38,247 bases of DNA from Gemmatimonadetes bacterium SCN 70-22 (GTDB taxonomy: Bacteria; Gemmatimonadota; Gemmatimonadetes; Gemmatimonadales; Gemmatimonadaceae), in the NCBI GenBank assembly GCA_001724275.1, contig MEDZ01000045.1, positions 1 to 38,247 of the forward strand, in the 5' to 3' direction. The position numbers were made by a program, and so were the translations under genes. The notes under the pieces are model-generated. The model was not told where the DNA came from. It saw nothing but the letters and a program-made list of their open reading frames with translations, and did not search any database. Positions 7,450 through 35,076 of this stretch are shown here, in pieces. Positions within the stretch are counted from its first letter, which is position 1. Every line of letters starts with the position of its first letter.

Positions 7450-10400
7450 ATGCCTACTCTCCGTCGGTCCCTCCAGAGTCGCGCTCCGGCCCCCGCGCCT
7501 GTGACAGGCGAGGCGCGCCGGCGCGCCAGGAACACGCTCGCCTCGTTCACGCTCCTCGCGGCGCTCGCCGCCCCACTCGCCGCACAGCAGGGAACGGTGG
7601 GCGGTGTCGTGGTGAGCGCCGCCAGCGGCGCCCCCGTCCCCGGTACGCAGGTCTTCGTGGCCGGCACCGCCACGGGGACGACGACCGACGCCAACGGCCG
7701 CTTCCGCATCGGCGGGCTTTCGGGTGACAGCGTCACGCTGTCGATCCGCCGCATCGGCTTCCAGGCCGCGACGCGCCGCGCGCGCGTGGGCGACGTGGAG
7801 CTCCGCATCGGCATCGTCGAGCGCGCGCTCGAGCTGAGCCAGGTCGTCGTGACGGGGACCGCCGGGAACGCCGAGAAGAAGGCGATCGGCAACGTGGTCA
7901 CGACCGTCAACGCCGCGGACATCGTCGCCACGCAACCGGTGCGCTCGTTCCAGGAGCTGCTCACGGGGCGTGCCGCCGGCGTCAGCGTCATCGGGAGCTC
8001 GGGACAGGTGGGGTCGGGGTCGCGCATCCGGGTGCGCGGGGCTTCGTCGCTCTCCCTCAACAACGACCCCCTCATCTACGTGGACGGCGTGCGCGTGGAC
8101 AACACGCAGGCGTCGGGGCCGACCAGCCAGGCGTTCGGATCGGCGCCGATCTCGCGCTGGAACGACTTCGACCCCGATGACATCGAGAGCATCGAGGTCA
8201 TCAAGGGGCCGGCGGCCGCCACGCTGTACGGGACCGAGGCGTCGAACGGCGTCGTGCAGATCGTCACCAAGCGCGGCGCGGCGGGGCGCCCGGTGTGGAG
8301 CTTCGGGACGCGCCTCGGCGCCAACCAGGTGCCCGACTGGAAGAACCGCTTCTACACCAACTACGGCGCCATCCCGCTGACCGGGAGCGCGACCGCGCTC
8401 GACACGGTGACCCTGAGCCCGGCGCAGCTGAACGACTCGCTGCACGCGGCGTTCGGCAACGACATCCTCCGCACCGGACTCCTCCAGGAGTACAACGCGA
8501 GCGTGAGCGGCGGCAATGCCGCGGTGCGCTATTTCGTGGGCGGCAACTACGAGGAGAACCAGGGGGTCGAGCGCGCCAACCGCCTCAACCGGGCCAATGT
8601 GCGCGCCAACATGACCATCACGCCGAGCGAGAAGTGGAGCGTGCAGTCATCGATGGGGTACACCACCGGGCGCACGTACGTCCCGTACGAGGCGGGCGGC
8701 GGCGGCCTCACGTGGGCCACCTACTTCTCGTCGCCGGGCTTCCTGTTCAGCGGGCGCAATCCCGGCAATCCGCAGCTAGGGTTCCGGTCGGGACCGCCGA
8801 ACATCTACTGGGAGGCGTACAACGTCTTCCAGGACGCCGACCGCTTCACGGGAAGCACGCAGATCACCCACTCCCCGGCGAAGTGGTTCAACCACCGCCT
8901 CATCGTCGGCCTCGACCGCCTGGCCGAGACGAACCACGACCAGGGGCAGCGGAACGACGACCTGGCGGCGAAGTATGCCTCGTTCTCCAGCGTCGGCGGG
9001 ACGACCAAGGGGTACGTCTCCATCGGGACGCGTGACGTCACCTACAACACGGTCGACTACTCGGCCAACGCCACCTTCACCTTCGGTGACTGGACGAGCA
9101 CCTCCTCGGCGGGCGGGCAGTACTACGCGCGCCGCTCGACCGTTCGTTCCTTCTACGGCCAGGAGTTCCCGGCGTCGGGGCTCATCTCGCTGCGCGCCGC
9201 CGCCATCCAGCGCACCGACCAGGACGACGTCTTCGACAACAACACGATCGGCGGCTACCTGCAGGAGCAGATGAGCTGGAACGACCGGTTGTTCCTGACG
9301 GCGGCCCTCCGCGCCGACGACAACTCGGCGTTCGGGACCAACTACCCGGTGGTGAAGTACCCGAAGTTCAGCGCCTCGTACGTCCTCAGCGAGGAGCCGG
9401 CGATCAAGCTCCCGTCGTGGGTCAACACGCTGCGCGTGCGCGGTGCCTTCGGCGGGAGCGGCCTGCAGCCGGGCGCCTTCGACGCCATCCGGACCTACAA
9501 CTCGGTGGGTGGCGTGGTCACCCCCGCCAACGCCGGCAACCCCGACCTCGGCCCGGAGCAGAGCTACGAGCTGGAGCTCGGCCTCGACGCCGGGCTGTTC
9601 GACGACCGCTACGGCATCGAGTTCACGTATTTCAACGGCTACACCAAGGACGCGATCCTCTCACGCCAGGCTCCGCCGTCTGCCGGGTTCCCCGGGCTCC
9701 AGTTCTTCAACGCCGGGCAGGTGGACCGCAAGGGCCTCGAATGGCTGGTGCGGGCCCAACCGATCCGCAGCGGAAGGCTCACGCTCGACCTCGCGCTCAG
9801 CGGCTCGACCAACTCGTACAACATCAAGGACCTGGGCGGCAACAAGGTCGTGTCGCTGTCCGGCCAGATCCAGCACGTCGTGGGCTACGCCCCCGGCGCC
9901 TGGTGGGATCGCCGGGTGGTGAAGGCCGACAAGGATGCGAACAACAAGGCCATCAACCTGCAGTGTGACGACGGCAAGGGCGGGATGGTGGCGTGCGCCA
10001 GCGCGCCGCGCGTCTTCCTTGGCAACTCCGTCCCCACCTACGAGGGATCGTTCACCACGGGGCTCACCCTCTGGCAGAACCTGCGCATCAACGCCTTCGT
10101 CGACTGGCGTGGCGGCTACAAGAAGCTCGACGGCAACCGGCGCGTGCGCTGCAACCTGTTCTCGCTCTGCCGCGAGAACTACTACCCGCAGGACTACGAC
10201 GCCGTGACGCTCGCCGAGGTGCAAGGCGGGACGGCATACACGTACAACCTGGTCCAGGACGCGAGCTTCCTCCGCTTCCGCGAGCTCTCGGCGTCGTACG
10301 CGCTCCCCAACAGCCTGGCCTCGTACTTCCGGGCCTCGCGGGCCACGATCACCCTCGCCGGCCGCAACCTGGGGATGAGCACCAGGTACAAGGGGATGGA

Positions 10401-10512
10401 CCCCGAGGCGTCGTTCAACGGCGGCTCGCGCGGCGGGGCCTTCGGCCAGTGGGAACAGAACGTCCTGCCACAGGTTCGCCAGATCGTGACCACCATCAGC
10501 CTGAGCTACTGA
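7450..10512 (+). CDS. SusC/RagA-family TonB-dependent outer-membrane transporter (pair 1)
   Basis: A 1020-residue SusC-like receptor. In order it has a signal peptide (hydrophobic core about 30-46, ending PLAAQ), a carboxypeptidase-regulatory-like beta-sandwich beginning GTVGGVVVSAASGAPVPG, a TonB plug with GRAAGVSVIGSSGQ, SRIRVRGASSLSLNN and PLIYVDGVRVDN, then a long 22-strand barrel ending in aromatic LSY. SusC proteins import large oligomers with the help of the SusD lipoprotein and TonB-ExbBD energy. The SusD partner starts 3 nt after the stop. I start at ATG 7450, which leaves a normal leader; an in-frame upstream ATG at 7357 would give an odd 31-residue extension. No clear ribosome-binding site is seen. 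The substrate is unknown. Confidence 0.93.
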   Translation: MPTLRRSLQSRAPAPAPVTGEARRRARNTLASFTLLAALAAPLAAQQGTVGGVVVSAASGAPVPGTQVFVAGTATGTTTDANGRFRIGGLSGDSVTLSIRRIGFQAATRRARVGDVELRIGIVERALELSQVVVTGTAGNAEKKAIGNVVTTVNAADIVATQPVRSFQELLTGRAAGVSVIGSSGQVGSGSRIRVRGASSLSLNNDPLIYVDGVRVDNTQASGPTSQAFGSAPISRWNDFDPDDIESIEVIKGPAAATLYGTEASNGVVQIVTKRGAAGRPVWSFGTRLGANQVPDWKNRFYTNYGAIPLTGSATALDTVTLSPAQLNDSLHAAFGNDILRTGLLQEYNASVSGGNAAVRYFVGGNYEENQGVERANRLNRANVRANMTITPSEKWSVQSSMGYTTGRTYVPYEAGGGGLTWATYFSSPGFLFSGRNPGNPQLGFRSGPPNIYWEAYNVFQDADRFTGSTQITHSPAKWFNHRLIVGLDRLAETNHDQGQRNDDLAAKYASFSSVGGTTKGYVSIGTRDVTYNTVDYSANATFTFGDWTSTSSAGGQYYARRSTVRSFYGQEFPASGLISLRAAAIQRTDQDDVFDNNTIGGYLQEQMSWNDRLFLTAALRADDNSAFGTNYPVVKYPKFSASYVLSEEPAIKLPSWVNTLRVRGAFGGSGLQPGAFDAIRTYNSVGGVVTPANAGNPDLGPEQSYELELGLDAGLFDDRYGIEFTYFNGYTKDAILSRQAPPSAGFPGLQFFNAGQVDRKGLEWLVRAQPIRSGRLTLDLALSGSTNSYNIKDLGGNKVVSLSGQIQHVVGYAPGAWWDRRVVKADKDANNKAINLQCDDGKGGMVACASAPRVFLGNSVPTYEGSFTTGLTLWQNLRINAFVDWRGGYKKLDGNRRVRCNLFSLCRENYYPQDYDAVTLAEVQGGTAYTYNLVQDASFLRFRELSASYALPNSLASYFRASRATITLAGRNLGMSTRYKGMDPEASFNGGSRGGAFGQWEQNVLPQVRQIVTTISLSY

Positions 10513-10514
10513 CC

Positions 10515-11816
10515 ATGACGCCTTCAACGCTCCAGGGGCGCACGTCCCGCGCGATGGGCGCCGCCTATCGCCTGGCGCGGCACGTCGCCGCCGCCGCGCT
10601 GCTCACGCTCCCGCTGGTGGCGTGCAGCGACGAGATCGACCAGCTCCTCAGCGCCGAGAGCCCCGCGCGGCTGTCGGAAAGCGGGCTCCTGCAACCTTCC
10701 AACGCCGCGCTCCTGGTGGCCAGCTCGGTGGCCGACCTCGAATGTGCACTCGGCTCCTACATCGTGGCGGGCGGGCTTGCCGCCGGTGAGCTGGTGGACG
10801 CCACGCAGACCGCCTCGCGCTGGTCGTACGACCGGCGCGAGGTCCTCCCGACCGACGCCCACTACTCGACCTTCTCCTGCGAAGGGTTGGGGGTGTACAC
10901 GCCGATCAACACGGCGCGCCACACCAACGACCAGGCGACGAAGAAGCTCGAGGAATGGACCGACCAGCAGGTCGCCAACCGCCAGCGCTTCATCGCCACG
11001 ACGGCGGCGATGGCCGGGTATGCCACCCTGTACCTGGGCGAGGGCTTCTGCTCGGCGACGATCAACGTCGGCCCCGAACTCACCTCCGACCAGGTCTTCG
11101 ACTCGGCGGTCGTGCGCTTCACCAAGGCCATCACCGCGGCCACGGCGGCCAACGACCAGAACGTGCTGAACCTGGCGCGGGTCGGGCGCGCGAGAGCCTA
11201 CCTCGACCGCGGCAACAAGGCGGCGGCCGCCGCCGATGCGGGGGGCGTCCCCGTGTCGTTCGTGTACAACGCGGAGCACAACACGCTGTCGACGCGACGG
11301 CAGAACCGCGTCTTCACGCAGAACAACCAGGGGCTCGCGGTGACGATTGCCGCGCCGTACCGGAACCTGACGGTGCAGGGAGTCGCGGACCCGCGCGTCC
11401 GCATCACCAACGCCAACCGGCTGGCCTCGGACCAGGTGAACCCGCTCTACACCCAGAACAAGTACGGGTCGCTCACCGCCCCGACGCCGATCGCGACGGG
11501 GATCGAGGCCCAGCTGATCCTGGCCGAGGCGCAGGGAGGGGCAAGCGGCATCTCGATCCTGAACGCGTTGCGCGCCCGCGCGGGCGTCGCCCTCCCGCCG
11601 CTGACGGCGGCGGAGGAGGCGGCGTTCGCCACGACGCTCGCCGAGGAGCGCAATCGCGAGCTCTTCCTGCAGGGGAACCGCTGGTACGACCTCAAGCGGC
11701 TCAACCTCCCGCAGGTCCCGGCCGCGGGGACGCCGTATGCCAAGGGAGGCACGTACGGGAACCAGCGGTGCTGGCCGCTTCCCGACGCTGAGAAGCTGGC
11801 CAACCCCAACTTCTGA
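10515..11816 (+). CDS. SusD/RagB-family outer-membrane lipoprotein (pair 1)
   Basis: A 433-residue lipoprotein. The lipobox LVAC puts the acylated cysteine at residue 37 after an N-region with several arginines. The C-terminal third shows the family ending: EAQLILAEAQGG, then ERNRELFLQGNRWYDLKRLN and a final Trp-Pro-Leu-Pro segment. SusD proteins cap the SusC barrel at the cell surface and capture ligand. At 433 residues it is shorter than typical Bacteroidetes SusD (about 500-550), as is common outside that phylum. It is translationally close-coupled to susC (ATG 3 nt after the stop). The middle region has low similarity to anything I recognise, so ligand class cannot be stated. Confidence 0.9.
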   Translation: MTPSTLQGRTSRAMGAAYRLARHVAAAALLTLPLVACSDEIDQLLSAESPARLSESGLLQPSNAALLVASSVADLECALGSYIVAGGLAAGELVDATQTASRWSYDRREVLPTDAHYSTFSCEGLGVYTPINTARHTNDQATKKLEEWTDQQVANRQRFIATTAAMAGYATLYLGEGFCSATINVGPELTSDQVFDSAVVRFTKAITAATAANDQNVLNLARVGRARAYLDRGNKAAAAADAGGVPVSFVYNAEHNTLSTRRQNRVFTQNNQGLAVTIAAPYRNLTVQGVADPRVRITNANRLASDQVNPLYTQNKYGSLTAPTPIATGIEAQLILAEAQGGASGISILNALRARAGVALPPLTAAEEAAFATTLAEERNRELFLQGNRWYDLKRLNLPQVPAAGTPYAKGGTYGNQRCWPLPDAEKLANPNF

Positions 11817-15124: not shown

Positions 15125-15446
15125 CGCCGGACCGGTGCATCGAAGTCCCGCAACGGCCACCCGTCGCCGCTGAGCGCTCGCGGCCGACGTGAGTGACGAG
15201 CCGTTGCGGGCGCGTCATGAACGGTAGGACACCCTCCGGTCGTTCCTACACCGTTCGTCCGCCTGGCAGTGCCACTCGCCCCAATCGCATGGTGACGCGT
15301 GCGCGCGCCTACCTACGTGCCCCGTGCAGGCGGGCGCGCGTGGGGCTCCCTCGCGCGCCCGCGCCTGACGAGTCGCGTCGGGCCGTCGCCGCCGCGTGAA
15401 GCCGGCGCGACGCTGCGCCCACGCACCCTCATCATCCGGAGGACAC
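15125..15446. promoter_or_regulatory. 322-bp intergenic region upstream of SusC pair 2 with two inverted repeats
   Basis: No gene is supported. An 11-bp perfect inverted repeat, CCCGCAACGGC at 15147-15157 with its complement at 15200-15210, is 42 nt apart and starts 22 nt after the preceding stop. A second, imperfect one (15219-15229 with 15244-15256, a 2-nt bulge) follows. The first could end the upstream transcript; the second may be an operator. Confidence 0.45.
15438..15442 (+). promoter_or_regulatory. Shine-Dalgarno GGAGG for the second susC-like gene
   Basis: GGAGG ends 4 nt before ATG 15447 and fixes that start over the in-frame upstream codon at 15396. Confidence 0.65.
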
Positions 15447-18434
15447 ATGCGACAGCGTCCTTGTCAGGGACTGGCCGTGATCATCATCCTCATCGCGGCC
15501 GCCCCGGTGGCGCACGCGCAGGGGAGCGGGACCATCACCGGCCGGATCACCGATCGCGCGACCGGCGCACCACTCGGCGACGCCCGCGTCACGCTCGTCG
15601 GTGTGCAGCGCGACGTTCGCACGAGCGAGACCGGGCAGTATCGCCTCACCGCGGTCACTCCTGGCATGGCACGCCTTCGCGTGCTGCGACTGGGGTACGC
15701 GGCGGCGTTGGACTCCGCCGTCGTCACGGCAGGAGGGGAGGTGACCGTCGACATCGCGCTCACCGCCACGATCACCCGGCTCGACCAGGTGACCATCAGT
15801 GCCACCGGCGCCACCGAGCGCCAGCGCGAGACCGGCAACAGCATCGCCGCCCTGCGGACCGACTCCATCCCGAGGGTGATCGTGAGCGGGGTGAACGACC
15901 TGCTCTCCTCGCGCGCGGCGAGCGTGACCGTCACGCAAACGAGCGGGACCAGTGGCACCGGTTCGCGCATCCGCATTCGCGGGTCCAACTCCGTGTCGCT
16001 GTCCAACGAGCCGCTGGTCATCATCGATGGCATCCGGTCGGTGACCGATCCGGGCGGCTCGACGATCAGCCTGGGCGGGCAGAACCCGACGCGGCTGGAC
16101 GACCTGAACCCCGACGACATCGAGGACATCGAGATCATCAAGGGGCCCGCGGCGGCGGCGCTCTACGGCACGGCCGCCGCCAATGGCGTCGTCCAGATCA
16201 CCACCAAGCGCGGCAAGTCGGGCCGGACGCGCTGGAGCTTCTACGGCGATGGCGGGCGGGTGGAGGACGTGTTCGACTACCCGGCCAACTTCGCGCGCGT
16301 GGGGACGCGCCCCAGCGGCGCCCGCACCACGGCGTGCACACTCGTCGATGTCGCCGACAACCGCTGTACCCCGAAGCCCGACTCGCTGGTCCACTGGACG
16401 CCGATCGAGGACGCCTCGGTCTTCGTGCGCGGGTGGCGGTCGAACTACGGCCTGAGCGCGGCGGGCGGCACCGACCGCACGCAGTATTACCTCGGCGGCG
16501 ACTACACCCGCGAGCAGGGGGTGTACTCCAACAACAGCGTGCGCAAGCAGGGGATTCGCGCCAACATCACCGGCCAGCTGAGCCCGCAGGCGGAGTTCTC
16601 GGCGAAGCTCGGCTACCACCAGGTGCGGGCGCGCCTTCCGCAGAACGACAACAACGACCTGAGCCCGATCGCCAACAGCGTCCTCGGCTCGGCGTTCGAC
16701 AATCCGGATACGCGCGGGTACATCTTCTATCCGCCGGCGCTGTACAGCCAGATCGGCGTCGACCAGGCGGTGGATCGCGTGACCGCCTCGCTCAACGGGA
16801 CGTGGCGCCCGCTGGGATGGCTGTCGGCCACGGGGCTTGGCGGGGTGGACTACGCGGGGCGCAGCGACCAGTCCGTCCTCCCCCCCGCCCTGATCGCCGG
16901 CCCCGACGAACGCACGCTCGGGCAGCGGCAGTCGAACCCCTACGGGCTCTGGACCTACACGGGGAATGCCAACGCCACGGCGACCTGGCGCCCCGTGGCC
17001 AGCATCGAGGCCAACAGCTCGCTCGGCACGCAGTTCAACCGCGAGATCGTGCACGGAACGCAGGCCTTCGGCCAGGGCCTGGCGGCCGGGACCGGTTCGC
17101 TCGGCGGGACCACCAGCGGCTTCGCCGTCAACGAGCAGAACCAGGAGATCGTGACGCTCGGCGTCTTTGCCCAGCAGCGCATCGCCTGGCGCGACAAGCT
17201 CTTCCTCACCGCGTCGCTTCGCGGCGACGACAACAGCAACTTCGGGCAGGACCTCGAGTTCGTCACGTATCCCGCCGCCTCGCTATCGTGGGTGGTCAAC
17301 GAGGAGTCGTGGTTCCCGCGGACGAACCTCGTGTCGTCGTTGCGCCTGCGGGCCGCCGCCGGCCAGTCGGGGCAGCGCCCCGGCTTCCGCAATGCGGTCA
17401 CGTTCTACAACACCATCGCGTACCGCCGCGCGGGGAGCGACGTGGGCGGGGTGGAGCTGGCCAACAACGTCGGCAACGCGACGCTCAAGCCGGAGAAGTC
17501 GACCGAGTTCGAGGGAGGGGTCGACCTGGGACTGTTCTCGGGGCGCGCTTCGCTGGAGTTGACGGCGTATCGCAAGACGACGCGCGACGCGCTCATCCAG
17601 CGCAACCTGCCGCCGTCGACGGGGGCCGCGACCCGCTACGAGAATCTCGGCGAGGTGACCAACAACGGCTACGAGGCCTCGCTCCAGGCCACCCTGGTCG
17701 ACACGCGCCCCGTGCGCCTCGACGTCAACGTGGTCGGATCGACGAACACCAACCGGCTCGTCACGTTGGGCGCCGGCGTCGACACGATCTTCTTCGGGCT
17801 CGGCGCGCTGGACGGCAACTTCGCGCAGCGCGTGGCCGAGGGGCACCCGGTGGGGGGCTACTGGCAGACGCCGTACACCTACGCCGACGCCAACGGCGAC
17901 GGGATCATCACCGCTGGCGAGGTGACGCTGGGGAACGACGTCACCTACCTCGGGGCGCCGCTCCCGAGCCGCGAGATGTCGATCACGCCGTCGCTCACGA
18001 TCTTCCGCCGGGTGCGCCTGACGGCGCTGCTGAACCACCGCGGCGGCTTCAAGATCTACAACGCCGGCGGCGAGTTCCGCTGCGCGGTCTTCGTGCGCTG
18101 CCAGGAGGCCTACGCCCCCGGCTCGTCGCTGGCGCTGCAGGCGCGCCGCGTGGCGGGGTTGCTCGGGACGAGCGCCGGCTACATCGAGGATGCCAGCTTC
18201 TGGAAGCTGCGCGAGGTGTCGCTGACCTTCGATGCCCCCGGCGAGTGGGCGCGCCGCCTGCGCTCCTCGTCGCTCAGCCTCACGATCGCCGGGCGCAACC
18301 TGGCGACGTGGACCGACTACACGGGCTTCGACCCGGAGATCAACTACAACGGCACCTCCAACTACAGCACCGCCGAGTTCTTCACCCAGCCGCCCGTCCG
18401 GTACCTGACGGCGCGCGTCGCGCTCGGGTGGTGA
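15447..18434 (+). CDS. SusC/RagA-family TonB-dependent outer-membrane transporter (pair 2)
   Basis: A 995-residue SusC-like receptor: short signal peptide ending APVAHAQ (about residue 25), carboxypeptidase-regulatory-like domain (GSGTITGRITDRATGAPLG), TonB plug (QVTISATGAT, SRIRIRGSNSVSLSN, EPLVIIDGIRS, IEIIKGPAAAALYGTAA), then a full barrel ending VALGW. Organisation matches pair 1, but the two differ clearly in the plug and barrel, so they should handle different cargo. The barrel contains DANGDGIITAGE (about 814-825), an EF-hand-like Ca2+ loop usual in SusC family members. The start is set by GGAGG 4 nt upstream. The SusD partner follows after 5 nt. Confidence 0.93.
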   Translation: MRQRPCQGLAVIIILIAAAPVAHAQGSGTITGRITDRATGAPLGDARVTLVGVQRDVRTSETGQYRLTAVTPGMARLRVLRLGYAAALDSAVVTAGGEVTVDIALTATITRLDQVTISATGATERQRETGNSIAALRTDSIPRVIVSGVNDLLSSRAASVTVTQTSGTSGTGSRIRIRGSNSVSLSNEPLVIIDGIRSVTDPGGSTISLGGQNPTRLDDLNPDDIEDIEIIKGPAAAALYGTAAANGVVQITTKRGKSGRTRWSFYGDGGRVEDVFDYPANFARVGTRPSGARTTACTLVDVADNRCTPKPDSLVHWTPIEDASVFVRGWRSNYGLSAAGGTDRTQYYLGGDYTREQGVYSNNSVRKQGIRANITGQLSPQAEFSAKLGYHQVRARLPQNDNNDLSPIANSVLGSAFDNPDTRGYIFYPPALYSQIGVDQAVDRVTASLNGTWRPLGWLSATGLGGVDYAGRSDQSVLPPALIAGPDERTLGQRQSNPYGLWTYTGNANATATWRPVASIEANSSLGTQFNREIVHGTQAFGQGLAAGTGSLGGTTSGFAVNEQNQEIVTLGVFAQQRIAWRDKLFLTASLRGDDNSNFGQDLEFVTYPAASLSWVVNEESWFPRTNLVSSLRLRAAAGQSGQRPGFRNAVTFYNTIAYRRAGSDVGGVELANNVGNATLKPEKSTEFEGGVDLGLFSGRASLELTAYRKTTRDALIQRNLPPSTGAATRYENLGEVTNNGYEASLQATLVDTRPVRLDVNVVGSTNTNRLVTLGAGVDTIFFGLGALDGNFAQRVAEGHPVGGYWQTPYTYADANGDGIITAGEVTLGNDVTYLGAPLPSREMSITPSLTIFRRVRLTALLNHRGGFKIYNAGGEFRCAVFVRCQEAYAPGSSLALQARRVAGLLGTSAGYIEDASFWKLREVSLTFDAPGEWARRLRSSSLSLTIAGRNLATWTDYTGFDPEINYNGTSNYSTAEFFTQPPVRYLTARVALGW

Positions 18435-18439
18435 TCGCC

Positions 18440-19795
18440 ATGACCCATCACGGAGACACTCCGCGCATGCCTGGACACATCTTCATCCGCCGAAGCGCGA
18501 TGGCCCTCGCCGCGCTGGCGCTCGTCGGCTGCAACCCCGACCGGGTGCTCGAAGTCGACGACGTCGACGTCGTGCGTCCCGGGAGCCTGGCCGGCAAGAG
18601 CGCGCTCCCCGCGCTCCGCACCGGCGTGCTCGGCTCGTTCCAGATCGCCTATTCGGGCGGCGGCGACCTCGCCAACGGAGGGCACGAGGGGCTCATCAAC
18701 CTCGGCGGCCTCTTCTCCGACGAGCTGGTCGACGCCGAGACGTTCAGCGATCGCATCAACCTCGACGCGCACCGGGTGACGGCGGCCAACGGCTCGATGG
18801 TCGCCCTCTTCCTCGACCTGAGCCGTGCCCGGGCGGCCGCGTCGGCGGCCGCGCGCAAGTACGCGCAGTTCGATCCGGGCTCCGACGGGCACGCGGAGAT
18901 GATCGCCATCGACGCCTTCGCGCACATCCTCTTCGGCGAGCACTACTGCTCTGGCGTCCCGTTCAGCACCATCACCGACGACGAGGCGCTCGTCTACGGC
19001 GATCCGCTGGCGCGCGACGAGATCTTCCAGGTGGCGGTCGCGAAGTTCGACTCGGTCATCGCCATGGCTCGGGCGATCCAGGACGGCGACCTCGAGGCGC
19101 TCGCGCGCGTGGGCAAGGGGCGCGCGCTGGTGAACCTCGCGCGCTGGAGCGAGGCGGCGACGGCGGTGGCCGGCGTATCCACAAGCTTCCGCTACGTCAT
19201 CGAGTCGTCGACCAACTCCAACCGCCAGCGCAACGGCATCTGGCACTACTTCTACAACGGGGCGTCGTTCAGCGTCGCCGATCGAGAGGGCGGCGTTGGG
19301 CTCCCGTTCGCCTCGGCGGGCGATCCGCGCATCGGTGCGCTGGACACGGGTGGCCCCGGCTTCGACGGCGAGACGAGGCTCATCATCGCGCGAAAGTATC
19401 CCGAGGCGTCGACGCCGACGGTCCTGGCCGACGGCGTGGAGGCGCGGCTGATCCAGGCCGAGGCGGCGCTTCGCGCCGGCGACGCCCCCGCGATGTTCGC
19501 GACACTCGACGCCCTGCGGCTGGGGATCGGGCTTGGCCCGCTGGCCGATCCGGGGACGCCGGGCGCGCGCGAGGACCTCCTGTTCTCCGAGCGCGCGAAC
19601 TGGTTGTACCTGACGGCGCATCGCACGGGTGACCTGCGGCGCCTGGTACGGCAGTACGGGCGTCCGGTCGCGTCGGTCTACCCGTCGGGCGCCTACTTCA
19701 AGGGTGGTGTCTACGGATCCGACTACGTCATCCCCGTGTCGGCCGACGAGCGCAACAATCCCAGGTTCCAGGGGTGCATCGACCGCGATCCGTGA
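18440..19795 (+). CDS. SusD/RagB-family outer-membrane lipoprotein (pair 2)
   Basis: A 451-residue lipoprotein with lipobox LVGC (Cys31 from the ATG at 18440). Family features are the N-terminal segment after the cysteine, the helical EVDDVDVVRPGSLAGKSA region, EARLIQAEAALRAGD in the TPR-like core and the C-terminal ERANWLYLTAHRTGDLRRLVRQYG. An internal ATG at 18467 with GGAG upstream would give a shorter leader and is an alternative start; both keep the lipobox. It would capture ligand for the adjacent SusC. As with pair 1 no degradative enzyme is fused or immediately downstream, so the nutrient is unknown. Confidence 0.9.
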   Translation: MTHHGDTPRMPGHIFIRRSAMALAALALVGCNPDRVLEVDDVDVVRPGSLAGKSALPALRTGVLGSFQIAYSGGGDLANGGHEGLINLGGLFSDELVDAETFSDRINLDAHRVTAANGSMVALFLDLSRARAAASAAARKYAQFDPGSDGHAEMIAIDAFAHILFGEHYCSGVPFSTITDDEALVYGDPLARDEIFQVAVAKFDSVIAMARAIQDGDLEALARVGKGRALVNLARWSEAATAVAGVSTSFRYVIESSTNSNRQRNGIWHYFYNGASFSVADREGGVGLPFASAGDPRIGALDTGGPGFDGETRLIIARKYPEASTPTVLADGVEARLIQAEAALRAGDAPAMFATLDALRLGIGLGPLADPGTPGAREDLLFSERANWLYLTAHRTGDLRRLVRQYGRPVASVYPSGAYFKGGVYGSDYVIPVSADERNNPRFQGCIDRDP

Positions 19796-27365: not shown

Positions 27366-28943
<1,578 letters not shown>

Positions 28944-28992: not shown

Positions 28993-29499
28993 TCACGACG
29001 GCGACGGGTTCTCCTCGGAGTCGCCCGCCCCGCTCGCCCCCCTCGCCCCGCTCGCCCCGCCCGCTGCGCTCGCCGCATCGCTCGCAGGATGGACGGCCGG
29101 GTCGCCCGGCGCCGCGGCCGCGGCATCGCCCCCCGGGCGTGTCGCGGGCTGGCCCCCCGCCTGAGCCGTCCCCGCCACTCCCTTGGCCACGTCGCTCGCC
29201 GTGGTCACGATGTCGCTGGCCACCGACTTCCCCGCCGCCGCGACCCCGCTCAACACACCGACCGCCTGGTTCAGCAGCCCCATGGTCTGCGAGATCGCCG
29301 ATGCGGAGACCTTCCCGGCCCGCAGGGTGTCCTCGATCCCCTCCGTGAAGCGGGTGAAGAGCGACGCCGGCGAGGCTTCCTTGACCCCGTGGCGCGAGGC
29401 GATGAAGTCGACGTAGTCGAGGACCGCGTAGCCCTTGTCGTCGCTCAGCGTGTCGAGCTGGCGCAGGATGCGGTCGCGCAGGTGCGGGGAGAGGGGCAT
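28993..29499 (-). CDS. Small protein of unknown function with Ala/Gly/Ser-rich tail
   Basis: A 168-residue protein. Residues 1-40 are helical and charged ([33 protein letters not shown]), a pattern like small DUF2281-type regulators. The middle (about 58-112) is a weakly amphipathic Ala/Gly/Val/Ser region, and the last 60 residues are low-complexity Ala/Gly/Ser/Pro. I see no signal peptide, no strong TM segment and no catalytic motif. ATG at 29497-29499 is clear. Its upstream DNA has GGAGACGGGA repeats. Base composition is like its neighbours. Real gene status is supported by the long N-terminal conserved-looking part; function unknown. Confidence 0.6.
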
Positions 29500-29666: not shown

Positions 29667-29749
29667 CAGCCGCGCCAGCGCCTCAGCCGCGCCAGCGCCT
29701 CAGCCGCGCCAGCGCCTCAGCCGCGCCAGCGCCTCAGCCGCGCCAGCGC
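29667..29749. repeat. 17-bp tandem repeat, almost five copies, overlapping a gene's 3' end
   Basis: The exact unit CAGCCGCGCCAGCGCCT starts at 29667, 29684, 29701, 29718 and 29735 (last copy truncated at 15 bp). The final copy on the plus strand overlaps the last codons of the M15 peptidase gene, so the array continues that coding end beyond its stop. Confidence 0.9.
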
Positions 29750-30762
29750 GCGCGCTTGCCCCGCGCGTCGATGTGGGCGTACGACGCGCCCCCTTGGAAA
29801 TACACCCCCAGTCCCCCCACCAGGTCGGGGTATTTCTGCTCCACGATCTCGACCGCCAGCTCGAGGAGGCGCACGTCGCGGCTGTCGATACGCCCGTCGC
29901 GGTTGGCGTCGATGGCCACGTCGGCCGCGTCGCCATACTGGTGGCGCGAGTCGCCCGCGGCGCGGGGGACGCGCCGGTTGTACAGCGGGGTGCGGAAGCC
30001 GGAGTGCACGTCCACCTGGACGGGGGCGTCGCTGCGGCCGCGGTTGAAGCTCGCGATCTCGTCGAAGACGAGCTCCAGCTTGTCCAGCAGGCGCCCGTCG
30101 ACCGCCGCATAACGAGGCCAGCGCGTCTGCTCGTCATGCGTGATGAAGTCGCCCACGCGCATGTGGGCCGAGAGCGGGAGGTCGGCCTGCGGCTCGTTGA
30201 TCTCGAGGAAGCCGCGCGGTCGCTCGTCGCCTCCCCCCCACCGCTCCCCGCGGTAGTAGCCGATCTTGTAGCCCTTGAGCGAGCCCCCCTGCTTCTCCTC
30301 GAAGGGGACCATCACGGCGAGCGTCAGGCTGTCGATGATGGTGCGCCCGCCGGCGTTGACCACCGCCAGCTGATAGAAGCCGGGGCGCGACGGTGCGGTG
30401 AGCGTCCCCCCCTCGGTGCGCGCCGAGTCGAGCGGCGCGAGCTCGCCCAGCGGAATCCACTCGAAGGCCACCGACGACGGCGCGGCGCGCAGCTCCAGCG
30501 GGAACTGGACGCGCTCGCCCGGCAGGGCGAAGCGCATGTGCACCGCGCGGCTCCGCCCCAGCGCGCTGGCGGCCAGGCGGGCATCGGGCGGCGGGGGAGG
30601 GGGCGCGTCGACGGCGCGTGGGCCGAAGGCGGCGTCGGCCTGGCGCAGCGCCAGCAACGACCCCAGCGCGAGGACGGTGAATGCGATGACCGGGATGAAG
30701 CGAGCGAGGCGCGATGCCGGCTCCAGCTCCTGCTCCTGCTGCTCCTGCTGCTCGTCGTGCAA
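29734..30762 (-). CDS. Membrane-anchored M15/YcbK-like peptidase with EF-hand insertion
   Basis: A 342-residue protein. A Gln/Glu-rich cytoplasmic start is followed by one TM segment (about 19-39), a Pro linker, a beta domain (about 75-160) and a C-terminal DUF882/M15_3-type metallopeptidase domain with [10 protein letters not shown] (253-262), zinc ligands H274 and D281 in RHQYGDAAD and H330-x-D332 in HIDARG. Such enzymes trim peptidoglycan cross-bridges or stems. Between the ligands sits a canonical Ca2+ loop, D285-x-N287-x-D289-G-x-I-D293-x-x-D296. TTG at 30760-30762 was chosen since GGAGG lies upstream (30774-30778) and no ATG or GTG precedes the TM; TTG at 30783 is the alternative. It follows its paralogue after 5 nt. 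Its stop at 29734 lies in a tandem repeat. Confidence 0.82.
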
Positions 30763-30767
30763 CGCGC

Positions 30768-31697
30768 CTAGATCCTCCCCCAACGCGCGCGCTGACCGCG
30801 CACGTCGACATGAACGAACGGCCCGTGGGCGCTCGTCGCCCTGTACAGCCCGGCCCCGCCGATGAGGTCCGGATGATCACGCTCGATCCGCTCGACCGAC
30901 TCCAGGACGATCTTCGCGTCGCGCAGGTCGACACGCCCGTCGCGATTGAGGTCGTCCATCGCGCCATCGCGATCGTTGTCGACGAAGACGTCGGCGGCGT
31001 CGCCGTACTGGTGGCGCGAATCCATCGCCCTCCCCCCCTTGGGCCCCACCCCCTTCACATTGTACTGCGGCGTGCGGAATCCCGACATCACCTGCATGTG
31101 GCTCACGGCATACCCGCGCCGCTGCAGGTCGGTGATGAGGAGTTCGAGCTTGTCGACCAGCGCCTCACGCAGCACCAGATACTTGGGCCAGGTGGCCTCC
31201 TGGTCCTTGGTGAGGAAGTCGCGCAGGCGGAAGTGGTCGGAGAGCGGGGTATCCTGGTTCTCCGTCGTGACCTGGATGAACCCCTCGGGCGACTTGTCGC
31301 GCATCCACGACACGCGCGACTCGCCAGGCCAGAAGCCGATGCGATACGTCCCCACCTTCCCGCGCTCGCGCGCCTGGAATGGGAGGAGGTTGATGAAGGC
31401 GAAGCGGCGCCCGGACACGGAGTCCGTGGCCTGGTAGATCCCCGGACGCGTGGCGGCCGACTCGCCGAACAGGTCGCGCAGGATGCGGATGCCCCCGGTT
31501 CGCCTGGGCGAGACGAGGCGGGCCTTGAGCTTCCCGCTCCTCCCGGCGAGGGTGTCGCTGAGGATCGCGCGATCGGACGCGGGGAGGCTGTCCCCCCCGC
31601 CCGCCACGGACGCTGCAGCCGGGCGAAGTGGGAGCGCCAGGGTGGCGAGGGTCAGGAGTGCGGAGCCGGCGCGCGTGCCGAAAGTCAGTCCCTTCAC
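30768..31697 (-). CDS. Secreted M15/YcbK-like peptidase with double EF-hand-like insertion
   Basis: A 309-residue paralogue of the gene after it. A signal peptide (about 1-29, ending RPAAAS) replaces the TM anchor. The catalytic domain has SGFRTPQYN (205-213), ligands H229 and D236 in RHQYGDAAD, and H296-x-D298 in HVDVRG, so the whole set is present. Two overlapping Ca2+ loops lie between them: D240-x-D242-x-D244 and D249-x-N251-x-D253-G-x-V-D257-x-x-D260. The upstream beta part (about 55-150) resembles that of the paralogue. The start is GTG at 31695-31697. The conserved end ARW is shared with the paralogue. It is probably the first gene of the pair, downstream of the transpeptidase cluster. 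Confidence 0.85.
30774..30778 (-). promoter_or_regulatory. Shine-Dalgarno GGAGG supporting a TTG start
   Basis: GGAGG (minus strand) lies 11 nt before TTG 30762 in the short gap after the first peptidase gene. It makes this rare start codon more likely than the TTG at 30783, which precedes the site. Confidence 0.45.
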
Positions 31698-31904: not shown

Positions 31905-32762
31905 TCAGTAGATGAAGACCGGGGTCCCGATCGGCACGATCCTATACAACGTCTCGATGTCTTCGTTCCGGAGTCGCACGCATCCGTGGCTGGCGGCGTT
32001 GCCGATGGACGACGGGACGTCGGTTCCGTGGAGGGCGTAGCCGTCGCCCAGGTTGAGGCGGTGCGTCCCGACCACTCCGGGGAAGCGGCGCTGGTTGGTC
32101 CCGAAGGGAGGGATGATGACCTTGCCGTTGACGATCAGGTCCTTCCCCTCCCCCGCCTCGAGGACCTCCTCGGTCCCGTCGGCGTGCCGCTTCACGACGT
32201 TGCTCCCGCTCACGGCGAGCACGACGCCGTTGCCGAGCGGGATCTCTTCGCCGCGCTTGAGGGGGAGGAGGGCGGCCTTCTTCTTGTGCGCCACCTCGAC
32301 ATAGTGCCAGTCGGGCGGGACCCACGCCGGGTCGCTCTCCTTGCTGATGACGACGAGGCGTCCGCGCGGGGTCTCGAACTTCCACTGGTTCCCCCCTCCC
32401 TTGGCGAGGACCTTGCCGGTTCCCGTGGCCACCCGCGTGGTGAACAGGAGCGAATCGCCCGCGCGGTACCAGAGCCGGCGGTCGGCGATGCTCACGACGA
32501 TGTACGGCTTTCCGGCGATGGAGTCGATCGGGGCCTCGACGATGGTCTGCAGCGAGTCCGAGACGAGGCCGACCTTGCGCTTCACGTCCTCGAGGACCTC
32601 GAGGTTGTCGTTGAAGACCATCCGCGCCAGGTCGCGCCGATAGCGCGCGGACGCGGTCGCCGCCCCCAGCCCCGCCGAGGAGACGAGGAGGAGGAAGAGG
32701 AGCCCGAAGAGGACCCGCGCCGGCGTGCCGCCGTGCTTCAGGAAGTGGCGAACCTCGGTCAT
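31905..32762 (-). CDS. L,D-transpeptidase (YkuD domain), membrane-anchored
   Basis: A 285-residue enzyme with an N-terminal TM segment (about 15-34), a short helical stalk, and a YkuD catalytic domain (about 85-285). The catalytic motif is complete: H245 in ALHGTD, then SHGCVRLRN with H259, nucleophile C261 and R263. It would cross-link peptidoglycan stems 3-3 or attach envelope proteins. A large segment (about 140-225) between first strand and active site is longer than in small YkuD enzymes. The ATG at 32760-32762 overlaps the stop of the upstream degenerate paralogue (ATGA), so the two are translated together. The promoter is probably before that partner. Confidence 0.92.
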   Translation of the reverse strand: MTEVRHFLKHGGTPARVLFGLLFLLLVSSAGLGAATASARYRRDLARMVFNDNLEVLEDVKRKVGLVSDSLQTIVEAPIDSIAGKPYIVVSIADRRLWYRAGDSLLFTTRVATGTGKVLAKGGGNQWKFETPRGRLVVISKESDPAWVPPDWHYVEVAHKKKAALLPLKRGEEIPLGNGVVLAVSGSNVVKRHADGTEEVLEAGEGKDLIVNGKVIIPPFGTNQRRFPGVVGTHRLNLGDGYALHGTDVPSSIGNAASHGCVRLRNEDIETLYRIVPIGTPVFIY

Positions 32763-33463
32763 TCGTAGAAGTACACCGTGATGCCCGGGGTGATGTTGGG
32801 AGCGATGGCGCGCAAGTCGCTTCGCGAGACGCGCACCGCCCCGGGGATGACGTAGGCACTATCGGCCAGGACGCCGGAATCCGGAGGGGCGTAGATCACC
32901 GTCCCCCCGCTCAGGACCAGGGCGCCGGCTCCCAGCGCCCCCGCGATACTCCGCTCGTGGGGGACGGGGAGGGAGCGGTCGTGAAAGATCCAGGTGGGGA
33001 CCTCCCAGCCGTCGCGCGGGCCCAGGACGCGCTCCACCGAGCGGGCGCCACGCGGGGTGACGACGCGGACCGTGTCCGGCGGCGTCCCCACCGTCCGCTC
33101 GCCTCCCAGCCGCACGTGCATCTCGCGGAGGAGGGCGCCGTCGCGCTCGAGGCGCATCAGCGCGCTGTCGACCGAGACGGAGAGGTGCAACTCCCGGTCG
33201 CCCGCCGCCTGGCGGCGGAGGAGCTCGAGCATGATCCCCAGGCGATTCTGGTCCGAGGCGGCGAGCATGTCGGTGCGCTGCCGCTCGGCGTCGGTCATCT
33301 CCTCGCGCAAGCGGGCCGCCTCGCGCGTGTAGCGGACGTAGCGTGCGACCAGGAGGGCGTCGCCCACGACGAGGAGGGCGATGAGCGTGGCCAGGACGGC
33401 GACGGTGCGCGGGTACTTTCGGTGCAGGGCGGTCCAGGGGCCTTCGCGTGCGCGTCCACTCAT
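32759..33463 (-). CDS. Degenerate L,D-transpeptidase-like membrane protein (putative pseudoenzyme)
   Basis: A 234-residue protein: TM segment about 18-41, a charged coiled coil (about 46-85) and a C-terminal domain (about 90-234) that lines up with the neighbouring YkuD enzyme. Matches include TPRGA with TPRGR, WEVPTW with WVPPDW, and the ending PGAVRVSRSDLRAIAPNITPG with HGCVRLRNEDIETLYRIVPIG. The catalytic Cys becomes Ala209, the preceding His of SHGC becomes Pro207 (VIPGAV), and HGTD becomes APPD. It is thus unlikely to be catalytic and may steer or inhibit its partner. I start at ATG 33463; an in-frame ATG at 33487 has no better ribosome site. The alignment is by eye and moderate. Confidence 0.78.
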   Translation of the reverse strand: MSGRAREGPWTALHRKYPRTVAVLATLIALLVVGDALLVARYVRYTREAARLREEMTDAERQRTDMLAASDQNRLGIMLELLRRQAAGDRELHLSVSVDSALMRLERDGALLREMHVRLGGERTVGTPPDTVRVVTPRGARSVERVLGPRDGWEVPTWIFHDRSLPVPHERSIAGALGAGALVLSGGTVIYAPPDSGVLADSAYVIPGAVRVSRSDLRAIAPNITPGITVYFYE

Positions 33464-33537
33464 TCCGGCTTGGGGCGTGTGATACATTGCGACGTTCGAC
33501 TGCCCGACGATACCACCCTTCCGGCTCCCCAGCCAAG
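33464..33537. promoter_or_regulatory. 74-bp divergent promoter region
   Basis: Short gap between the divergently starting transpeptidase-like gene and gpmI. Both promoters must fit here or reach into the genes. I see no convincing -10/-35 boxes. Confidence 0.35.
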
Positions 33538-35076
33538 ATGCCCCGTCCTTCAACTCGCCCGGTCGTCCTCGTCGTGCTCGATGGCTTCGGCCATCGCGAG
33601 GCGCGGGAGGGAAACGCCGTGGCCATGGCGAACATGCCCACGTGGACCGCGCTCTGGTCGCGCGCGCCGCGCACGCTGCTGGAGGCGTCGGGGGTGGCGG
33701 TGGGGCTCCCGGCGGGGCAGATGGGGAACAGCGAGGTGGGGCACCTGAACCTGGGCGCGGGGCGCGTGGTGAAGCAGGACCTGGTGCGGATCGGCGAGGC
33801 CATCGCCGACCGGTCGTTCTTTTCCAGGCCCGCGTTCGTCGACGCCTGCGCGCACGTCAAGCGCACCGGGGGGACGTTGCACCTGCTGGGGCTCGTCGGC
33901 GACGGCGGGGTGCACGCGCTGGACCAGCACCTCTTCGCCCTCCTGGACCTCGCCGAGCAGCAGGGGGTGGCCAAGGTGGCGATCCACGCGCTCATGGACG
34001 GGCGCGACACCCTCCCCACCAGCGGGCTGGGGTACATGGAGCGGGTCCTGGCGGCGGCGCGCGGGCGCGCGCAGGTGGCGTCGTTAGGGGGACGGTACTT
34101 CGGGATGGACCGGGACCGTCGCTGGGAACGCGTGAAGAAGTGGTACGACTCGGTGATGGGGGTGGGCCCGGCCACCGAGGATCCCCTGGCGGCGATCCGC
34201 GCGGCGTACGCGCGCAACGAGACCGACGAGTTCCTCACCCCGATGGTCGTCACGCGGGGGGGCGTCCCGGTGGCGCCGATGCGCGATGGCGACGCGGTGA
34301 TCGGCTTCAACTACCGGTCGGACCGGATGCGCCAGATGGTGCGGGCGCTCACGCAGCCCGGGTTCGACGGCTTCGACGTCAGCTCCCGCCCGCGGCTGCA
34401 CCTGGCGACGATGACGTCGTACGACGAGACCTTCTCGTTCCCGGTCGCCTTTCCCCCCTTCTCGATGGCCCGCATCGTGGCCGAGGTGGTGTCGGAGACC
34501 GGGATGACGATGTTCCGCACCGCGGAAACCGAGAAGTACCCGCACGTGACCTATTTCTTCAACGGCGGGATCGAGGTCCCCTTCGCGGGCGAGGTGCGCA
34601 ACCTGGTGCCCAGTCCGAAGGTCGCGACCTACGACCTCCAGCCCGAGATGTCGGCGCGCGGGGTGACCGACGTGTTGTGCGAGGCCATCGGGAGCGGCTC
34701 GTACGACTTCACGCTGTGCAATTACGCCAACGCCGACATGGTGGGGCATACGGGGTCGATACCGGCGGTGATTTCGGCGCTGGAGTGCGTGGACGAGTGC
34801 CTGGGGCGCGTGGTGCGCGCGGCGGAGAAGGCCGGCGCTCGCCTCCTCGTGACCGCCGACCATGGCAACTGCGAGGTGATGATCGATCCGGCCACCGGGG
34901 GACCGCACACCGCGCACACCACCAACCCCGTCCCGTTCGTCGTCCTCGACCCCGAGGGCGACCGCCCGCTGCGCGGGGGCGGGGCGCTGTGCGACGTGGG
35001 CCCCACCGTGCTCTCGATGCTGGGCATCGAGCAACCGACCGAGATGACGGGGCGCTCGCTGCGCCTCCCTTCCTGA
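33538..35076 (+). CDS. gpmI: 2,3-bisphosphoglycerate-independent phosphoglycerate mutase
   Basis: A 512-residue alkaline-phosphatase-superfamily glycolytic enzyme. It has the Mn-binding start VLVVLDGFG with D15, catalytic Ser65 in MGNSEVGH (62-69), DGRDTLPTSG, and the metal site TADHGNCE near the C-terminus. The length matches the family. It interconverts 3- and 2-phosphoglycerate. The ATG at 33538 was chosen; the frame opens further upstream, but the family begins at the conserved P-V-V-L-V-V-L-D strand. A TTA leucine codon (CGTTAGG, 34082-34088) interrupts otherwise CTG/CTC usage. It is followed 12 nt later by the beta-barrel gene. Confidence 0.96.
   Translation: MPRPSTRPVVLVVLDGFGHREAREGNAVAMANMPTWTALWSRAPRTLLEASGVAVGLPAGQMGNSEVGHLNLGAGRVVKQDLVRIGEAIADRSFFSRPAFVDACAHVKRTGGTLHLLGLVGDGGVHALDQHLFALLDLAEQQGVAKVAIHALMDGRDTLPTSGLGYMERVLAAARGRAQVASLGGRYFGMDRDRRWERVKKWYDSVMGVGPATEDPLAAIRAAYARNETDEFLTPMVVTRGGVPVAPMRDGDAVIGFNYRSDRMRQMVRALTQPGFDGFDVSSRPRLHLATMTSYDETFSFPVAFPPFSMARIVAEVVSETGMTMFRTAETEKYPHVTYFFNGGIEVPFAGEVRNLVPSPKVATYDLQPEMSARGVTDVLCEAIGSGSYDFTLCNYANADMVGHTGSIPAVISALECVDECLGRVVRAAEKAGARLLVTADHGNCEVMIDPATGGPHTAHTTNPVPFVVLDPEGDRPLRGGGALCDVGPTVLSMLGIEQPTEMTGRSLRLPS

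Follow-up and report, generated by a model that had tools for sequence, protein, structure and literature searches.

Do the Ca2+-type loops that lie between the zinc ligands of two neighbouring M15 peptidases gate the active site, or do they hold it in shape? The two genes, called A and B below, are found in a window of 38,247 nucleotides (the whole stretch of DNA analysed) from Gemmatimonadetes bacterium SCN 70-22. A first-pass annotation had described two M15-type peptidases with such loops near the metal ligands, and proposed Ca2+-gated or Ca2+-stabilised cleavage of peptidoglycan.

Two paralogous peptidases and their loops

The features of the two genes are the following, in window coordinates.

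30768..31697, minus strand: gene A, 309 aa from a GTG start; exported peptidase of the M15 type, with a Sec-type signal peptide as judged by eye
30990..31013, minus strand: HQYGDAAD of A, zinc ligands H229 and D236; invariant in 62 sequences
30945..30980, minus strand: first loop of A, D240-N251, Ca2+-type; degenerate in part of the relatives
30918..30953, minus strand: second loop of A, D249-D260, Ca2+-type; positions 1 and 12 invariant; dockerins matched here by profile
30876..30926, minus strand: F-hand helix of A after the loop, residues 258-274; from DSSP on the AF2 model
30804..30818, minus strand: FVHVD of A, third zinc ligand H296, and D298; from the alignment
29734..30762, minus strand: gene B, 342 aa from a TTG start; M15 paralogue anchored in the membrane, with TM helix, Ig-like domain and M15 domain
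29920..29943, minus strand: HQYGDAAD of B, zinc ligands H274 and D281; from sequence and alignment
29875..29910, minus strand: single loop of B, D285-D296, Ca2+-type; first ligand 4 residues past the zinc Asp
29767..29781, minus strand: YAHID of B, third zinc ligand H330, and D332; from sequence

A and B are neighbouring paralogues, with 39% identity across 237 aligned columns. The start of B is the TTG at 30762, and a GTG stands at the same position in one relative (L006). Against Pfam PF05951 (Peptidase_M15_2/DUF882), A scored 29.5 bits, above the gathering cut-off of 27, and B scored 19 bits, below it; all 62 aligned relatives match this family at E <= 0.1. The zinc set HxxGxAxD ... HxD is present together with SG[FY]R, and its ligands are invariant across the 62 sequences. 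Both open reading frames are real M15-type peptidases with the H...D...HxD set, as first annotated, and the SGFRTP motif is found in each of them.

The same genome holds two more two-loop paralogues outside the operon, L001 (G000:C9) and L003 (G000:C3), which brings its loop-bearing M15 genes to four; some 8 kb separate the C3 paralogue from the second YkuD gene of this genome. A perfect 17-bp tandem repeat (4.9 copies, window 29667-29749) covers the last codons and the stop of gene B, and adds stops in other frames. Elsewhere in the window, at 9993-11816, an open reading frame matches SusD_RagB (6.4e-8), which is known above all from Bacteroidota.

Loops were searched for with the pattern D-x-[DN]-x-D-G-x-[hydrophobic]-[DNST]-x-x-[DN]. 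They lie between zinc ligands 2 and 3, and their coordinates bear out the annotated count of one loop in the anchored protein and two overlapping ones in the secreted protein. The first annotation was right to place them near the zinc ligands, but it set them directly after the first ligand block, and the true anchor is the Asp, the second zinc ligand. Similarly, both loops of A exist, with three residues in common, but they are unequal: the invariant second loop is the counterpart of the B loop, and the first is a degenerate, 9-residue tandem copy of the second. When the residues were shuffled, 24 (A) and 11 (B) of 200,000 sequences had the motif, approximately 1 in 10,000, and a six-frame scan of the window gave four occurrences, three of them in A and B; a chance motif is thereby ruled out. 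A further EF-hand-like loop, DANGDGIITAGE, was noticed at window position 17886 on the plus strand, within an open reading frame (15299-19795) that has no Pfam family.

E. coli MepK (YcbK) shares with A and B the motifs SG[FY]R, HxxGxAxD, GGxGxY and FVHxD, and its gene also adjoins an L,D-transpeptidase (LDT). Unlike A and B, it lacks their extra N-terminal regions and is loop-free, with 32 residues from the Asp to the His motif (FHIEGIALSNIR...) versus 46 in B and 57 in A. The short turn that had been ascribed to YcbK at this place is thus confirmed.

Conservation and distribution of the loop

The family was collected with an alignment (A1) that ends before the loop, so that the search was not conditioned on it. 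This loop-free core recovered 130 distinct members in 80 public-genome loci. A strict or loose loop was recognised by regular expression in 126 of them, and the remaining four also keep the ligand positions (three have Ser/Thr at position 8, and one segment was clipped by the pattern). Among the members examined, no loss of the loop was seen.

For the one-loop type, segments were cut out at a constant distance from the zinc Asp, and all 37 distinct ones have D, G and D at positions 1, 6 and 12. For the two-loop type, D is present at positions 1 and 12 in 70 of 70 distinct second loops and at position 5 in 69, in a count where the regular-expression anchor itself demanded D at position 1; in a MAFFT alignment, made without that condition, D249 and D260 are invariant in 62 sequences. 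Altogether, positions 1 and 12 are fixed in 107 distinct segments, and positions 4, 10 and 11 are free to vary. These segments display the EF-hand/F-hand set of oxygen ligands at 1, 3, 5, 9 and 12, Gly at 6 and a hydrophobic residue at 8, with an exiting helix in the models, and neither A nor B reaches the Pfam EF-hand or dockerin cut-offs. As judged from sequence, the loop is the mark of a family.

The ligand positions are frozen while 4, 10 and 11 vary; this sign of selection gives good support to a Ca2+ site near the active site, and of the two roles first suggested, stabilisation is the better half. It could also be that the loop is a former Ca2+ site, kept as an acidic surface or protein-binding element. 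Degeneration of the first loop of A, whose position-1 Asp is kept in 47 of 59 distinct relatives and lost in 12, would fit such a fate; yet the ligand positions are kept in 107/107 segments next to variable spacers, a pattern not easily accounted for if no metal binds, and we consider a vestigial loop improbable.

Outside the family, none of 32 inter-ligand segments from M15_2/M15_3 proteins carries the loop. Viral contigs supplied 16 of these segments and Acidobacteriota 2; the remaining 14 come from E. coli MepK, plasmids and phages. The first annotation held that its gating idea would lose its point if the loops folded far from the active site and were widespread in unrelated M15 proteins; in this sample the insertion is not widespread. 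In Gemmatimonadota, the family was found in 90 of 200 sampled genomes, nearly all those of the window's own taxonomic family being positive. In Acidobacteriota it was found in 8 of 199, with the second loop intact, and two other genomes of this phylum have loop-free MepK-like proteins. In a tree, the rows with the loop group together, apart from those without it (support 97/95), and the one-loop and two-loop types require one change each. This is consistent with a single gain of the loop, as far as sequences can tell, without proving it. A search of plasmids gave no match at E 1e-3, and at E 10 solely loop-free DUF882 proteins among the parsed loci (L218 and L226 left out). One record, L035, is labelled 'Candidatus Kuenenia', but both the synteny and the 'phylum' neighbours of its locus are those of Gemmatimonadota; taken to be mislabelled or misbinned, it was rejected as evidence that the family had passed into Planctomycetota.

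Predicted structure and known Ca2+ sites

Metal-free AF2 models, built on 62-sequence alignments, have a mean pLDDT of 86 for A and 90.3 for B, and of about 95-98 over the loops. In the model of A, the loop stands between strand 234-239 and helix 258-274 with a pLDDT of about 97, and B is alike: the strand bearing the zinc Asp leads into the loop and then into a core helix, a strand-loop-helix unit of F-hand type in these models. In B, the first loop ligand is estimated from strand geometry (4 residues x ~3.3 Å) to lie at most ~13 Å (C-alpha) from the zinc Asp. Structure matches place the Ig-like domain of B at residues 64-160 and the M15 domain at 204-349, in a 349-aa numbering. Among solved folds, 1LBU, a zinc DD-peptidase, comes first with Z 9.0 and 10.0, and LysECD7 and ChiX follow. 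The S. albus G enzyme 1LBU shares the fold and a SRHMYGHAAD-type block with A and B and has DD specificity; it is not known to have a comparable Ca2+ loop.

Sequence searches of solved structures with the single proteins gave no useful relative; a profile search gave 1LBU and dockerins, and the stretch over which the family profile aligns with dockerin sequences is precisely the loop and helix. Pfam Dockerin_1 also matches 21 of 62 family members at E <= 0.1. These matches could suggest a docking module for a cohesin-like partner. The resemblance to the type I dockerin F-hand is indeed local, with loop, following helix and D1/N3/D5/G6/D12 pattern. However, dockerins carry two repeats of 22 residues and pair with a cohesin, whereas A and B have one loop-helix unit inside a catalytic fold, the second repeat is absent, and no cohesin (PF00963) was found in the genome. 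We therefore rejected the docking module, the least credible of the readings considered. A literature search returned nothing joining an M15 peptidase with dockerin and calcium, nor DUF882 with calcium.

For gating there is a precedent. In the phage T5 endolysin EndoT5 (M15C), Ca2+ fixes a loop and opens the active site (PMC10487532), so that one M15 enzyme is already known to be controlled by Ca2+ through a loop that lies between these zinc ligands. Applied to A and B, shifts of Ca2+ occupancy in the cell would open or close the active site through the loop, and peptidoglycan cleavage would follow the Ca2+ level of the envelope; EndoT5 has the same zinc M15 fold and an EF-like loop between ligands 2 and 3, and the B loop begins 4 residues past the zinc Asp. 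Several points speak against it. The EndoT5 loop (~residues 113-122) comes after a helix, just before H133, whereas the A/B loop precedes the helix; no Ca2+ loop of EndoT5-type position, just before the third zinc ligand, was found in A or B, whose loop comes after the Asp strand and does not resemble that of EndoT5 in sequence. Regulation by Ca2+ is missing in the EndoT5 orthologues RB43 and RB49, whereas the loop of the A/B family is invariant. In the metal-free AF2 models the loop is rigid and confident; because AF2 places it metal-free, these models are no evidence on Ca2+ dependence. The compartment that receives exported proteins normally holds more Ca2+ than the cytosol, and A and B are exported to it. 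From this analysis, gating appears less likely than a structural Ca2+ site, and we rate it as unlikely.

Another Ca2+ centre is known in the Hedgehog N-domain and BacHh (M15A). Hedgehog is a documented LAS-fold relative (PMC4102407) that shares with A and B the LAS/M15 fold and has Ca2+ near zinc, as is predicted for A and B; the match of A to its N-domain (Z about 6) is within the range rated a common arrangement. Its Ca2+ ligands (Shh E90-D132, PMC8052667) are N-terminal to the zinc ligands, whereas the A/B loop lies between ligands 2 and 3. No centre of this type was found in A or B, the sole conserved acidic loop found being C-terminal to the zinc Asp.

Gene neighbourhood and proposed function

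The conserved order around the pair is iPGM, 264-aa protein, YkuD L,D-transpeptidase, A, B, 168-aa protein and IMPDH. The flanking features in the window are these.

32759..33553, minus strand: conserved 264-aa protein upstream, function unknown; from synteny
31905..32762, minus strand: YkuD L,D-transpeptidase, directly upstream of A; Pfam 2.6e-24, SHGCVR catalytic motif intact
28993..29499, minus strand: conserved 168-aa protein downstream, no Pfam family; from synteny
27366..28919, minus strand: IMP dehydrogenase, closing the conserved cluster on its downstream side; assigned from sequence

Among operon-type loci with sufficient upstream sequence (n=46), 37 have the transpeptidase directly upstream of A and 42 have B; an adjacent LDT is missing in the other nine. 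For family members outside the operon, an LDT was nearby in 2 of 12. Seven loci (L046, L041, L088, L058, L073, L045 and L081) have an A-B cluster near iPGM without the transpeptidase and the 264-aa gene; the LDT half of the cluster has apparently been lost there.

In E. coli, ldtD, which encodes an L,D-transpeptidase, adjoins mepK. MepK, an endopeptidase with LD specificity, supports growth when the cross-linking is done by LDTs (PMC12729407). It is mainly the parallel between the LDT-A-B synteny and the E. coli ldtD-mepK pair that leads us to propose an LD-peptidase function. Substrate specificity itself is a guess, because A reaches 19.6 bits against the MepK equivalog model NF053624, whose cut-off is 185 bits, and B has no match. 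A and B could instead be DD-carboxypeptidases or L-Ala-D-Glu endopeptidases, as the nearest folds would allow: 1LBU is a DD-peptidase, LysECD7 an endolysin, and ChiX acts on L-Ala-D-Glu. Against this, every member matches DUF882/M15_2 (E <= 0.1), to which MepK belongs, and the LDT neighbour favours LD chemistry; we hold such other chemistry to be rather doubtful.

Our preferred reading, with a probability of roughly 0.6, is that both proteins are exported, MepK-like M15 zinc enzymes, peptidoglycan peptidases of the L,D type, with a predicted structural Ca2+ latch that is constitutive, not a dynamic switch. A would be set free in the periplasm, and B would stay fixed to the inner membrane. After export, the loop would act as an F-hand (dockerin-like) site and take up Ca2+; the bound ion would pin the zinc-Asp strand to the core helix, and the pinned strand would let the active-site scaffold fold and stay rigid outside the cytosol. 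There, A and B would probably act on the 3-3 cross-links that the neighbouring L,D-transpeptidase forms, by trimming or cutting them. The sequence, the zinc set, the conservation of the loop, the spread of the family, the gene surroundings and the fold as predicted are direct results of the analysis; Ca2+ occupancy, substrate and latch role are what we infer. A bolder proposal is that transpeptidase and peptidase form a Ca2+-responsive pair, in which envelope Ca2+ would set peptidase activity, hence 3-3 cross-link turnover in Gemmatimonadota, by way of a Ca2+ site with an origin of its own, separate from those in EndoT5 and Hedgehog although the fold is shared; we see it as a long shot.

A literature search on the Gemmatimonadota cell wall gave five papers, none of which, going by its title, deals with that wall. 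The loop marks out a family, spread over two phyla, that is poorly captured by present Pfam and NCBIfam models, and in Gemmatimonadota this family is tied to L,D-transpeptidases. On sequence evidence, the place of the loop seems to be the third where an M15/LAS zinc peptidase has acquired a Ca2+ site close to its metal centre, EndoT5 and Hedgehog/BacHh having the other two. The family also gives a simple mutational test of whether such a loop is a latch or a switch.
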